Below are positions 16,884 through 21,157 of a stretch of 61,742 nucleotides of DNA, in pieces; position 1 is the first letter of the stretch, and each line of letters starts with the position of its first letter. A program made the position numbers and the translations under genes. Source of the DNA: Bernardetiaceae bacterium (lineage in GTDB: Bacteria; Bacteroidota; Bacteroidia; Cytophagales; Thermoflexibacteraceae); assembly GCA_025057115.1 (NCBI GenBank), contig JANWWZ010000016.1, positions 1 through 61,742 of the forward strand. The letters run 5' to 3'. The notes beneath the pieces were generated by a model, which saw nothing but the letters and a program-made list of their open reading frames with translations, was not told the DNA's origin and did no database searches.

Positions 16884-16969
16884 CTGCTAATTGCTTTAGA
16901 CAAAATTACAAAAAATTTTTTCCTTTGAGGGTTACTTTGCCTGACTTATCCGTATTAATGATAGCAGCC

Positions 16970-17524
16970 ATGAAAAAGACTGCCTTGCTCAACGAAGAGG
17001 CGTATATTAAAGCACTTCGCCAGCAGGACGAGGCAGTGATGGGGCGCTTATATAGGCTTTATTTCCCTATGGCGCTTCACTTGGTAGTGATGAACAACGG
17101 CACCGAACAGGAAGCCAAAGACGTTTACCAAGAAGCTTTCATCATCCTTTACGAAAGCCTACAACGCCCTGATTTTCAACTGCGCTGTAGCATCAAAACT
17201 TTTCTTTACTCCGTTTGCCGCAACCACTGGCTTAAGCGTTTGCAGGCAAAAAAAGCAAATGTAAGCATCAAAGATGTAGAAGAATTTATCCCTTTTGTTG
17301 AAGATAGTGCAAGCATTGAAAACGAAATCCGAATTAAAATGCTAGAAGCAGCCTTGCAAAAGCTGGGGGAGCCTTGCCGCACTATCCTTGAAGATTACTA
17401 CCTTCACAACATGTCTATGGCGGAAATTGCAGAAAAAATGGGCTATACCAACGCCGACAACGCCAAAAACCAAAAGTACAAGTGTTTGACTCGTTTAAAG
17501 CGAATTATGGGGGAAAGAAAATGA
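16970..17524 (+). CDS. ECF-type RNA polymerase sigma factor
   Basis: 184 residues with sigma-70 region 2 (about 20-95: EQEAKDVYQEAFIILYESL and TFLYSVCRNHWLKRLQAKK) and region 4 (about 125-180: ALQKLGEPCRTILEDYYLHN and MSMAEIAEKMGY as helix-turn-helix). There is no region 1 or 3, so it is an extracytoplasmic-function factor. The start at 16970 (MKKTALLNEEAY) is chosen because the 15 upstream codons do not fit the family. The next gene starts 14 bases later and encodes a membrane-anchored protein whose N-terminus looks like an anti-sigma domain, which suggests a sigma/anti-sigma pair. Confidence 0.93.
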   Translation: MKKTALLNEEAYIKALRQQDEAVMGRLYRLYFPMALHLVVMNNGTEQEAKDVYQEAFIILYESLQRPDFQLRCSIKTFLYSVCRNHWLKRLQAKKANVSIKDVEEFIPFVEDSASIENEIRIKMLEAALQKLGEPCRTILEDYYLHNMSMAEIAEKMGYTNADNAKNQKYKCLTRLKRIMGERK

Positions 17525-17537
17525 AGACAGAGTGCCT

Positions 17538-18632
17538 ATGGAATGGTGGGAAAAAATAGAGCGTTATACAGAGGGCAACATGGAGCCAGCAGAATGTCTT
17601 GTTTTTCAAAACCAATTAGAGAATGACCCCGTTCTAGCTGAGCAAGTAAAAGAGTACCAGCACATACGCCACAGTTTTGAGTTGCTCAAAAAACGTCGGC
17701 AACTCAAAGAGCAACTTGAACTTTTCCATGCAGAAATTGACCCGCTACAGCAGCAAGAAGCCCTCCGAGTGTATAAAAACCGACAAAAGTGGCGCAAGTA
17801 CTTTGGCAAGTATTTACCTACAGTGGCGGTAGCTGCCAGTGTAGCCATCGTGACAGCACTAAGCACCCTGTTTACTTTAGGGTATTTGAAGAACATAGAG
17901 CGCAGCCAACGAAACAGCCTTCAACTGCTCCACCGAGAGCTTGACCAAATCAAGCGCGATATCAAAAGTGCAAAAGACACTCTCAAGCGCGCTTTTCCAC
18001 GTGCAGGACGCCAACGCTTCGAAGGAACGGGCTTTGCTACCTCTACCAAAGGATATTTGATTACTAGCTATCACTTGGTAGCCCAGGCTGATTCTATCTT
18101 CATTGAGTCAGCTACTCGATCTGGCATGCGGTACAAAGCCGAGGTCGTTTTCACCAATCCCACTACTGACCTTGCCATTCTGAAAGTTACTGATGGTACT
18201 TTTAAAGATTTTGGCAAGATTCCATACACTTTCAAAAAAGAATCTATGGATTTAGGTGAAGAAATTTTCACGCTTGCCTATCCCAAAAACGACTTAGTAT
18301 ACGGCGAAGGCAACATTAGCTCACCCACGGGCTTTGAAGGGGATTCTACTGCATACCAAATTTCTATTCCAGTGAATCCAGGCAACAGCGGAAGCCCTGT
18401 TTTTGATGAAAATGGCAATATTATTGGCCTTGTGTCTGGAAAATTAACTGGCGCAGAGGGGGTTGCATTTGCCCTCAAATCTTCAGTCATTTGGAAACTG
18501 CTCAAAGATAGCCTTCCTGACAAGGTAAATACTATCATAGAGCTACCCAAACAAAGCCGCCTTGCTGGTAAAAAGCGCACTGTGCAGTTAAAAACACTTC
18601 AAGACTTTATTTTTCAAGTAAAAGTGTATTGA
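17538..18632 (+). CDS. Membrane-anchored trypsin-like serine protease with anti-sigma-like N-terminus
   Basis: 364 residues. Residues 1-60 (MEWWEKIERYTEGNMEPAEC, then FQNQLENDPVLAEQVKEYQH) resemble the cytoplasmic N-terminus of Bacteroidota anti-sigma proteins. A single membrane helix (92-116) is followed by a charged, probably coiled-coil stretch (117-150) and a trypsin-like S1C domain: H179 in ITSYHLV, D211 in NPTTDLAIL, S284 in NPGNSGSPV. No PDZ domain is present, unlike DegP/DegS. The topology places the protease in the periplasm and the N-terminus in the cytoplasm. With an ECF sigma gene 14 bases upstream, the protein may both bind the sigma factor and sense envelope stress. That role is inferred. 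Confidence 0.85.
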   Translation: MEWWEKIERYTEGNMEPAECLVFQNQLENDPVLAEQVKEYQHIRHSFELLKKRRQLKEQLELFHAEIDPLQQQEALRVYKNRQKWRKYFGKYLPTVAVAASVAIVTALSTLFTLGYLKNIERSQRNSLQLLHRELDQIKRDIKSAKDTLKRAFPRAGRQRFEGTGFATSTKGYLITSYHLVAQADSIFIESATRSGMRYKAEVVFTNPTTDLAILKVTDGTFKDFGKIPYTFKKESMDLGEEIFTLAYPKNDLVYGEGNISSPTGFEGDSTAYQISIPVNPGNSGSPVFDENGNIIGLVSGKLTGAEGVAFALKSSVIWKLLKDSLPDKVNTIIELPKQSRLAGKKRTVQLKTLQDFIFQVKVY

Positions 18633-18667: not shown

Positions 18668-21157
18668 TCAGACGGGGTCTACATTGATAATAACTCGCCC
18701 TTTGCCAAAGGTTTTGCCTTGCGCAATCTGCTCAGTAGCTGCAAGCAGTTGTTCTTTAGCTGCTTTAAGTAAGGCACTTTCGCGCTCAAGCTTAATGAGG
18801 ATATTTCTTATGTGCAAATCGCGGACTTTTTCTACAAGGGGAGCTTGCGGTCCTAGAATCTTCTCACTGCCTAACCTAACGCGAAGTTGGTCCGCTAGCT
18901 GGATTGCCATAGTTTCTACATAATCCTCTTTTTCGCCTTTGAGGGATATCTCTACCAACCTCGTAAAAGGAGGATAGCGAAATTGTTGCCGATGAGGAAG
19001 CTCATTTTTGTAAAAATCTTCAAATCGGTGAGTGGCTACGTACTCTAGTACGGGATGGTGCGGGTCTGCAGTTTGAATGATAACTCTACCAGGCACGTTT
19101 CTCCTACCAGCCCGCCCTGCCACTTGAGTAAGTGCCTGAAAAACTCGCTCATGAGCTCGAAAATCAGGATAGTGCAATGCGCGGTCAATATCAAACACTA
19201 CTACCAAAGAAACGTGGTCAAAATCCAAGCCTTTGGTTACCATTTGTGTACCTACGAGAATATCAATTTTTCGGGCACTAAAATCCTCTATTATTTGCCG
19301 CAACGCGTGCTTTCTTCTGGTAGTATCTAAGTCCAAGCGCTGTACTACGGCTTCTGGAAAAAGCGACTTAACAGTATCTTCTATTTTTTCCGTTCCGTAT
19401 CCCACCTTGGCAAGGTCTTTAGAATGGCATTGAGTGCAAGCCAGAGGCAGATTTTCTTCATAACCACAATAATGACAACGCAACTGGTAATCGTACAAGT
19501 GGAAAGTAAGGCTAACATCGCAATGTTGGCAACGAGGCACCCAATTACACCTCTGACAAACAAGGCGAGGGGCATACCCTCGGCGATTTTGGAATAAGAT
19601 CACTTGCTGGCGAGCTTGCAAAGCTTCTTTAATGGCTTGAATCGTCTTAGGTGCCAATTCGCCTAGCATGCGTTTTGCTCGTGACTCATGGCGAATATTG
19701 ACAAACTCCACCGATGGCAATGGCACCTGTTGATAGCGCTGCCGAAGACTGACATAACCATATCGCTTGATAGCAGCATGGTAGAAACTTTCCATAGAAG
19801 GGGTAGCAGTTCCCAAGAGCACTTTTGCCCCATGCCTTTGCGCCAATATCAAAGCTGCATCGCGAGCATGATAACGCGGCGCAGGCTCTTCTTGCTTGTA
19901 AGAAGCATCGTGTTCTTCATCGACAATGATGACGCCCAAGTGGCTAAAAGGCAAAAAAATAGCAGAACGAACTCCTACCACCACGTCCAACTTGCCGTAG
20001 AGCACCCCTAGCCAAGTTTCTACTCGTTCATGATCAGAAAAGCGGGAGTGATACACGCCCAATCTATCGCCGAAAACCTTTTGCAACCGCATTACGATTT
20101 GCGTCGTCAGGGCTATCTCTGGCAAAAGCAGCAGGGCTTGAGCGCCTGACTGCAATATTTGTTCTATTAAGTGAATGTAAATCTCAGTTTTTCCCGATCC
20201 CGTAACCCCGTGGAGCAACACAGTTTGTTTTTCTTGCCATTGAGCAAGAATTTTCTGGAGCGCCTCTTGTTGGCTTGAAGTCAGGCAAGGCAGCTCGGCA
20301 TTGAAATTAGTTTCGGCAGTCTCCAATCGCGAGATGATTACTTCAAATTCTTCTAAAATGCCTCCTTTGAGCAAGTTTTTGTAGGCAAGAAGAGAGAGCT
20401 CGGGTGTAATTAGCTGGCTTTTGAAGATGCCTTCGGCGTGTTGTTGAGAGTTGGCATTCGGTGGAATAAAGGAAAGATATTTCAACAAGATTTGCTCTTG
20501 TTTAGGCTTTTTTTTCAAAGTTTCCAGGAGAGCAATTATTTTTTGCCCATCTTGGCTTACATAATCAGCATTTAAGCGAACTTTTTTAACTTTTTTGGGC
20601 TGATACTTTTCTTGAACTTCCTCTGAAATCAAAATTAGTTGCTTGTGCAAAAGCGATTTGATCACCTTGTAAGCGCTAGGGCTTCCAATGGCTTTGACTG
20701 CTTCTTGATAGCTCAGAGAGCGTTTTTGCTTGAGAGCTTGCAATAGCACTTGTTCTTTTTCGCTTAAGTTCACCTTGTAAGCGGCTTCTTGAGCAAAGGG
20801 ATTGACTTGAATCCGAGATTCGCTACTGAGTTTAAGTCCTGAGGGCAAGGCGGCTTGTAACACCTCTCCCAATGAACATAAGTAGTACTCGGCTATCCAC
20901 TTCCAAAATTCCAACTGAATGGGTAAGACAACAGGCTGAAGGTCTATTAACTCTAATATCGACTTAGTGGTATACTTGGTAGGAGCATGCCCATGCAAGG
21001 CAGTAACAATACCTGTCAAGAGGCGTTTTTGACCAAAAGGCACTAACACTCTCATGCCTTCAGCGATGCTGGAATGCCATTGCGCAGGCACGTCATAGGT
21101 AAAAGTTCCCTTCAGCGGCACAGGAAGAAGTACCTCGGCAAACAGTGACTGATTCAT
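18668..21157 (-). CDS. priA: Primosomal replication restart helicase PriA
   Basis: 829 residues. Helicase motifs: Walker A GVTGSGKTEIY (about 313-323), Walker B IVDEEHD, TATPSMES, QVAGRAGRR and QTADP. The zinc-binding insert has paired cysteines CQRCNWVPRCQHCDVS and CHYCGYEENLPLACTQC. The N-terminal 3'-DNA-binding domain starts AEVLLPVPLKGTFTYDVP. PriA recognises abandoned replication forks and reloads the replicative helicase. The ATG at 21157 is preferred to the TTG one codon upstream. It converges on the protease gene with 35 bases between them and no clear terminator. Confidence 0.97.
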   Translation of the reverse strand: MNQSLFAEVLLPVPLKGTFTYDVPAQWHSSIAEGMRVLVPFGQKRLLTGIVTALHGHAPTKYTTKSILELIDLQPVVLPIQLEFWKWIAEYYLCSLGEVLQAALPSGLKLSSESRIQVNPFAQEAAYKVNLSEKEQVLLQALKQKRSLSYQEAVKAIGSPSAYKVIKSLLHKQLILISEEVQEKYQPKKVKKVRLNADYVSQDGQKIIALLETLKKKPKQEQILLKYLSFIPPNANSQQHAEGIFKSQLITPELSLLAYKNLLKGGILEEFEVIISRLETAETNFNAELPCLTSSQQEALQKILAQWQEKQTVLLHGVTGSGKTEIYIHLIEQILQSGAQALLLLPEIALTTQIVMRLQKVFGDRLGVYHSRFSDHERVETWLGVLYGKLDVVVGVRSAIFLPFSHLGVIIVDEEHDASYKQEEPAPRYHARDAALILAQRHGAKVLLGTATPSMESFYHAAIKRYGYVSLRQRYQQVPLPSVEFVNIRHESRAKRMLGELAPKTIQAIKEALQARQQVILFQNRRGYAPRLVCQRCNWVPRCQHCDVSLTFHLYDYQLRCHYCGYEENLPLACTQCHSKDLAKVGYGTEKIEDTVKSLFPEAVVQRLDLDTTRRKHALRQIIEDFSARKIDILVGTQMVTKGLDFDHVSLVVVFDIDRALHYPDFRAHERVFQALTQVAGRAGRRNVPGRVIIQTADPHHPVLEYVATHRFEDFYKNELPHRQQFRYPPFTRLVEISLKGEKEDYVETMAIQLADQLRVRLGSEKILGPQAPLVEKVRDLHIRNILIKLERESALLKAAKEQLLAATEQIAQGKTFGKGRVIINVDPV

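Follow-up and report, generated by a model that had tools for sequence, protein, structure and literature searches.

How does an ECF sigma factor work together with a membrane protease whose gene lies directly behind its own? This question is raised by a gene pair in the window, by which we mean the whole stretch of 61,742 nucleotides analyzed here. In the E. coli sigmaE pathway, RseA is the anti-sigma factor, and DegS and RseP are the proteases. The second protein of the window's pair joins a putative sigma-partner domain to an S1C protease domain. We lean towards the reading that the locus is a two-gene, autoregulated ECF sigma/anti-sigma module, in which the anti-sigma factor anchors its own S1C protease in the membrane.

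The initial annotation had described an ECF sigma gene adjoining a gene for a fused membrane protease, and both open reading frames were confirmed. Their features are as follows.

16970..17524, + strand: ECF sigma factor, 184 aa, with regions 2 and 4 (ATG at 16970, stop at 17524).
17538..18632, + strand: fused membrane protein, 364 aa from the ATG, with N-domain, one transmembrane helix, stalk, and S1C protease.
17538..17771, + strand: helical N-domain, residues 1-78, a putative sigma-partner module predicted to be cytoplasmic.
17820..17885, + strand: transmembrane helix, about residues 95-116.
17829..17837, + strand: V98-A99-A100, an XAA-type site in the transmembrane helix and a candidate site-2 protease/ClpXP signal.
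17889..17987, + strand: predicted helical stalk (AF2 model), residues 118-150, with L131 nearly invariant in the alignment.
18012..18512, + strand: S1C (Trypsin_2) protease domain, about residues 159-325, with H179, D211, and S284.
18525..18629, + strand: conserved C-terminal helix and strand, residues 330-364, at the position of the PDZ domain in DegS.

The sigma protein matched TIGR02937 (1.9e-20) and Pfam Sigma70_r2 (5e-8), and its match to Sigma70_r4_2 (1.6e-5) scored 24.9 bits against a cut-off of 25.7. Regions 2 and 4 are both present, as in ECF sigma factors. The ATG of the partner gene at 17538 is located 13 bases past the sigma stop codon, and a GTG at 17532 could serve as an alternative start.

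The AF2 model of the fused protein (mean pLDDT 88.2) showed an all-helical N-domain, a long helix at residues 82-151 that spans the membrane and forms the stalk, and then a chymotrypsin-type domain. The N-domain block was modeled as helices only, with pLDDT of 91-97 over residues 1-60 in one computation and 85-95 in another. A single strongly hydrophobic helix was seen in both the model and the hydrophobicity profile; together with the Pfam match, this bore out the annotated architecture of one membrane helix and an S1C domain. The 15 residues preceding the most hydrophobic stretch contained five Lys/Arg and no Asp/Glu, and three Lys/Arg were found after it. Within the helix, A99 and A100 were conserved in 52/52 orthologues and position 98 was V, A, I, M, or F in every one, so that the hydrophobic-A-A pattern of the RsgI XAA site was present in all of them; no other column of the helix was invariant. 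The Ala-Ala pair could alternatively serve helix packing. PMC12203970 places such XAA sites in the membrane helices of RsgI anti-sigma factors and describes their recognition by ClpXP after RseP cleavage. The sole Cys of the translated fused protein is C20, inside the N-domain.

The protease domain matched Pfam Trypsin_2 at 2.8e-22 over residues 163-298. The H-D-S triad, annotated as intact, was indeed retained as H179, D211, and S284 in 52/52 orthologues. The best NCBIfam matches were the MarP, DegP/HtrA, and DegS models, all under their curated cut-offs, and in a Foldseek search of the PDB, DegS headed the matches listed, with HtrA1, MucD, and DegP close behind. The protein has the S1C domain and triad of DegS but lacks its C-terminal PDZ domain: no PDZ family in Pfam matched at E up to 1, in agreement with the initial annotation, and identity as a DegS orthologue was therefore rejected. 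Residues 326-364 consist of short helices and a strand only in the AF2 model, and R347, Q350, and V363 of this tail were nearly invariant in the orthologue alignment. The window's genome contains four further S1C matches and also encodes members of the M50 site-2 protease family.

We searched for the fused protein in other genomes. Full-length matches were found in 26 of 59 genomes, including the window's own. In a sample of the class, 59 of 395 genomes (own included; rows counted by hand) had a match at E 1e-49 or better. In a sample of the phylum, a match at E 1e-45 or better was obtained for 29 of 395 genomes, each of them listed under the same class, the share of other classes in that sample not being given. 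A whole-protein scan of the genome contigs returned five loci, two of which were close orthologues. The sigma gene was located directly upstream in 51 of the 52 orthologue loci, which is a feature of class I anti-sigma domains (ASDI), whose genes adjoin that of their ECF sigma factor; the remaining locus (L045) lies at a contig end. In these 51 loci the gap between the two genes was at most 173 bases, and nine showed a 4-base overlap. No conserved separate anti-sigma gene stood beside the sigma gene in the 51 fused loci with a visible sigma gene.

A tree of 83 protease domains was built from the 52 fused proteins, 26 relatives that have no N-domain, the protease of the split case described below, and four HtrA proteins. 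A branch supported at 100/100 set all 52 fused proteases apart from the rest, which is compatible with a single origin of the fusion. Among the 26 relatives, the triad His and Ser were each present in 25 and the Asp in all 26. One near-copy (L017) was omitted from the first alignment (A1), and three proteins with a truncated N-domain (L027, L030, and L064) were omitted from the second (A2) and from the N-domain HMM. In the latter three, fused proteins of family f10, about 35-50 residues are missing from the start of the N-domain, and the sigma gene and the promoter are retained.

We then asked what the N-domain is. Single-sequence scans of the window's own N-domain against Pfam and NCBIfam gave no anti-sigma family match, and the whole fused protein matched the 'anti-sigma factor' model NF052375 at E 0.097. 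Among 49 orthologous N-domains scanned at E up to 1, NF052375 was matched by 22 (best 2.6e-6), Pfam zf-HC2 by 14 (best 8.7e-4), and PRK13920 'putative anti-sigmaE' by 10; each remaining family was matched by at most four.

A stronger test, independent of annotation, used an HMM built from these 49 N-domains, which was run on 579 ORFs. Among them were the ORFs of 28 loci with a related ECF gene; one is a paralogue from the window's genome, and the other 27 belong to genomes in which no full-length match occurred. Four copies of training loci (L035, L036, L070, and L071) were excluded from this test. For 21 of the 28 loci, made up of 20 among the 27 and the own-genome paralogue, the HMM recognized the product of the gene immediately following the ECF gene, at E 5e-17 to 2e-3 and with gaps of -55 to 158; seven loci had no such neighbor by the HMM. 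Two of the 21 neighbors (L083 and L092) are ORFs of merely 78 and 89 residues. With E values of up to 1 allowed, S1C was matched by none of the 21, and of five compared with Pfam, four were without a match at E 0.01 and one had zf-HC2 in its N-domain. The only other matches among the 579 ORFs were the separate protein of the split locus and the window protein itself. Because the matches were confined to proteins adjoining ECF genes, the N-domain appears to be a portable sigma-partner module. In the paralogous locus of the window's genome (L099; G000:C3:81320-81877, - strand), the ECF gene is followed by that of a 225-residue, protease-free N-domain protein. Another sigma-partner protein (L094:2042-2911) carries two tandem copies of the N-domain ahead of its membrane helix.

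Structural comparison of the N-domain with anti-sigma folds was suggestive. Of the four Foldseek rows, three were RslA (3hug), with E values of 8.5-9.1 that are not significant. A VIA comparison, which covered Foldseek's four chains and left other anti-sigma folds outside it, gave a weak resemblance to RslA (Z 5.8, rmsd 5.5, 62 aligned). The initial reading of the protein as an anti-sigma-like part fused to a protease therefore stood as regards the fusion of a sigma-partner domain with S1C and the linkage to the sigma gene, but its structural match to anti-sigma factors did not go beyond suggestion. Gene context and domain modularity lead us to infer that the N-domain binds and holds the sigma factor.

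One contig, from a Paludibacteraceae MAG, carries the related ECF sigma factor, the anti-sigma factor, and the S1C protease as three separate genes. This apparent operon (L037:2683-5897) comprises ECF sigma, anti-sigma, S1C protease, and a caspase-family protein (Pfam C14, 2.1e-17). Its separate N-domain protein has 231 residues, and its S1C protease has an apparent signal peptide. This split arrangement supports a functional link among sigma factor, anti-sigma factor, and protease rather than breaking it. No second split locus was present among 30 loci fetched with the L037 protease in a class search: six were of the fused type, and 24 had neither a sigma gene nor an N-domain within flanks of about 1.5 kb. 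Since the same S1C subfamily occurs in these 24 loci without a sigma gene, the substrate of the protease need not be itself. The sigma-free branch (L100-L120, L122, L123, and L128) shows varied N-terminal parts and mostly apparent signal peptides; the latter were judged by eye and were not clear in L103 and L106.

We examined the region upstream of the sigma gene and identified the following feature.

16929..16958, + strand: candidate autoregulatory ECF-type promoter, with a -35 GGGTTAC, a 16-base spacer, and a -10 GTATTAA (0-mismatch).

The strict form of the motif was found upstream of 36 of 51 orthologous sigma genes and the relaxed form upstream of 43 (mononucleotide shuffle means 0.002 and 0.012, respectively), leaving eight sigma genes without the relaxed motif. 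GGTTAC alone was located at most 230 bases from the sigma gene in 50/51. The locus at the contig end, in which the sigma gene is not present, was left out of these counts. In 38 genomes bearing the pair, the strict pattern GGGTTAC-N15/16-GTATTAA occurred at 69 sites compared with 2 for the reversed control pattern, whereas 33 related genomes in which the fused protein had no full-length match gave 3 sites and 3 control sites in the same search, none of the former before a small lipoprotein gene. One of the 33 (G012) is 62% complete, and its missing pair may be a gap. This conserved upstream motif and its co-occurrence with the pair suggest that the sigma factor may transcribe its own operon.

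The 69 sites were divided among the sigma operon (27), small lipoproteins (31), longer lipoproteins (2), and other or unclear genes (9). Eleven of the 27 sigma sites were assigned by coordinates, and the two tandem sites of one locus (L191) were both counted as sigma. A small lipoprotein followed 31 of the 42 sites outside the sigma operon. At least one strict site of this kind was present in 22 of the 38 pair-bearing genomes, and 16 had none.

In the window's genus, each of four genomes contained exactly two 0-mismatch N16 sites, the second of which preceded a small lipoprotein gene in 4/4. The gene upstream of this lipoprotein gene is, we take it, metG-like. Loosening the pattern gave 12 sites versus 13 for the control, and allowing up to two mismatches gave 78 versus 150. 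As these counts do not exceed the controls, the case within the genus depends on where the second strict site is consistently located, and the case for the promoter on the strict sites, the 4/4 placement, and the comparison of the 38 with the 33 genomes. In the window's genome, the second perfect site (G000:C44:143590-143619) lies before a gene for a 63-residue Ala/Pro/Thr-rich lipoprotein (L148:1500-1749).

The 31 small lipoproteins linked to the promoter in the 38 genomes are low-complexity proteins of 58-84 residues. With the four of the genus added, the 35 proteins have 56-84 residues, with mature parts of 36-59, and are rich in Thr, Ala, Ser, Asp, and Lys; none contains any Arg, Trp, Tyr, or Phe. 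They were recognized by a simple lipobox pattern of our own making, not by a signal-peptide program. As a control, the same filter was applied at 20,000 random positions in other loci: 3.2% had a small lipobox ORF, and 0.4% had one free of Arg, Trp, Tyr, and Phe. Several genomes have two or three tandem lipoprotein genes; in L172-L177 such tandem genes diverge from the sigma gene, and a promoter copy precedes every one of them. The PG1828 family (NF050142) was the best NCBIfam match for four of five lipoproteins tested (E 1.1e-9 to 1.1e-4), although the five scored 17.8-38.8 bits, under the curated cut-off of 50 bits. From their consecutive locus numbers, the genes PG1827 and PG1828 presumably adjoin. 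PMC5607195 identifies PG1827 of P. gingivalis as SigH, an ECF factor. The lipoproteins may have a function in the envelope circuit.

These results are consistent with an envelope-stress module whose anti-sigma factor carries its own protease. The cytoplasmic N-domain would hold the sigma factor at the membrane, as gene context and modularity suggest, and an envelope signal would activate the extracytoplasmic protease domain. The protease might then start the cleavage in the juxtamembrane linker or stalk of the same or a neighboring molecule; this is the least certain step. By analogy with RseA and RsgI, an RseP-like protease would next cut the shed stub in the transmembrane helix near the invariant VAA, and ClpXP would degrade the released fragment, freeing the sigma factor. 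The freed factor would act at the GGGTTAC-N15/16-GTATTAA promoters, whose sites are seen in the sequence. Its predicted targets in the window's genome are its own operon and the gene of one small low-complexity lipoprotein, the two perfect N16 copies. The sigma binding and the order of cuts are likewise presumptive. For self-cleavage as the first cut, taken as a step by itself, we regard the case as nearly balanced, with doubt slightly ahead. The retained triad and the autocleavage reported for MarP make it plausible. Against the module as a whole count the missing anti-sigma match and the non-significant RslA fold match of the window's own N-domain, the truncated N-domains of L027, L030, and L064, and those loci or genomes that lack an N-domain neighbor, the relaxed motif, or a strict lipoprotein site.

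Chance pairing of an ordinary ECF sigma factor with an unrelated membrane protease would fit the weak single-sequence matches of the window's N-domain and nothing else; the 51/52 linkage, the modular N-domain, and the common promoter speak against chance neighbors, and we rejected this explanation as hardly credible. A closer competitor accepts the N-domain as an anti-sigma domain and takes the protease for an envelope quality-control enzyme or sensor that spares its own stalk, so that substrate engagement or another site-1 protease would trigger release. The sigma-free occurrence of the same S1C subfamily in 24 loci (flanks of about 1.5 kb) favors it, and one of the four further S1C matches in the genome could be the site-1 protease. 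It also draws on the S1C-like domain of the anti-sigma factor RsgI9, which, according to PMC12203970, can serve polysaccharide binding. A pure binding domain, however, would not need the triad that is kept in 52/52 orthologues, and we consider this arrangement rather unlikely, though it deserves to be weighed.

It is also conceivable that the N-domain is a FecR-like co-activator (pro-sigma) required for an active sigma factor after processing. FecR-type regulators are common beside Bacteroidota ECF genes, and the sign of regulation cannot be read from sequence data. Against this, the families matched most often by the N-domains are anti-sigma models (NF052375 in 22/49 and zf-HC2 in 14/49, at E up to 1), and no FecR family was among the 25 families listed per scan in Pfam and NCBIfam. 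We judge such a role improbable, and retain the module with a membrane-anchored anti-sigma/protease as our preferred reading.

Within that module, we tentatively envisage a closed homeostatic loop, itself a doubtful extension. The protease/anti-sigma protein would monitor the envelope, perhaps lipoprotein traffic, cut itself, and free the sigma factor, which would make little beyond the device and the tiny unstructured lipoproteins. The latter might repair the envelope, or they might turn the protease off by occupying it. The literature searched contained no description of such a loop. Likewise, neither this promoter nor, for Bacteroidota, an anti-sigma factor fused to an active S1C protease was described in the papers searched, which cover part of the literature; a numbered ECF group for the pair may exist in print.

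The sequence data directly display the fused protein and its linkage to the sigma gene; they also show that the triad is intact, that the N-domain is modular, and that the promoter motif is present, together with the genes after it. The shared promoter and its lipoprotein targets go beyond the account of the initial annotation. According to PMC7406223, class I anti-sigma domains are rare near Bacteroidetes ECFs: only 6% of these have one in their neighborhood, compared with an average of 32%. The N-domain, which adjoins related ECF genes in 21/28 loci, offers a handle for annotating such pairs. In the fused version, the anti-sigma factor and a potential site-1 protease are present in a single protein. 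With a predicted regulon as small as the own operon plus, in the window's genus, one small lipoprotein, the circuit lends itself to direct testing through a single promoter, lipoprotein, and catalytic serine.

We compared the module with known systems. Mycobacterial MarP is, like the window's protein, a membrane-tethered trypsin-like protease, and is its best NCBIfam match, although far under the cut-off. MarP has four transmembrane helices and a regulatory disulfide, whereas the protein described here has one transmembrane helix, confines its only Cys to the N-domain, and carries a sigma-partner domain. MarP is reported to autocleave under oxidative stress (PMC4992679). The dual membrane-spanning Dma anti-sigma factors of Bacteroides share an N-terminal sigma-related domain, a transmembrane helix, and an unusual extracytoplasmic part, as described in PMC13088901; there the outer part is a disordered tether and beta-barrel, not a protease.

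The sigmaE/RseA/DegS/RseP pathway resembles our locus in having a single-pass anti-sigma factor beside the ECF gene, an AA site in the transmembrane helix, an S1C protease (with DegS as the first fold match), and a site-2 protease family in the genome. It differs in that here a single protein would be both anti-sigma factor and S1C protease, in that the predicted regulon is small, and in that a conserved helix-strand tail stands in place of the PDZ domain of DegS.

In RsgI9 of Clostridium thermocellum (PDB 7sjy), the triad of the S1C-like domain is presumably not catalytic. RsgI9, an anti-sigma factor, resembles the window's protein in carrying, outside the membrane, an S1C-like domain (match at 6.3e-8; PMC12203970). 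The same paper describes its N-domain as beta-barrel-like, in contrast to the all-helical N-domain here, and membership in RsgI was rejected on this difference in fold. It further presents RsgI9 as an orphan without a known SigI, with an S1C-like domain described as polysaccharide-binding, and its sigma class is SigI, not ECF. RsgI9 is the nearest precedent, but it belongs to another sigma class and has another N-domain. The window's pair is made of known parts in an unusual and conserved arrangement.
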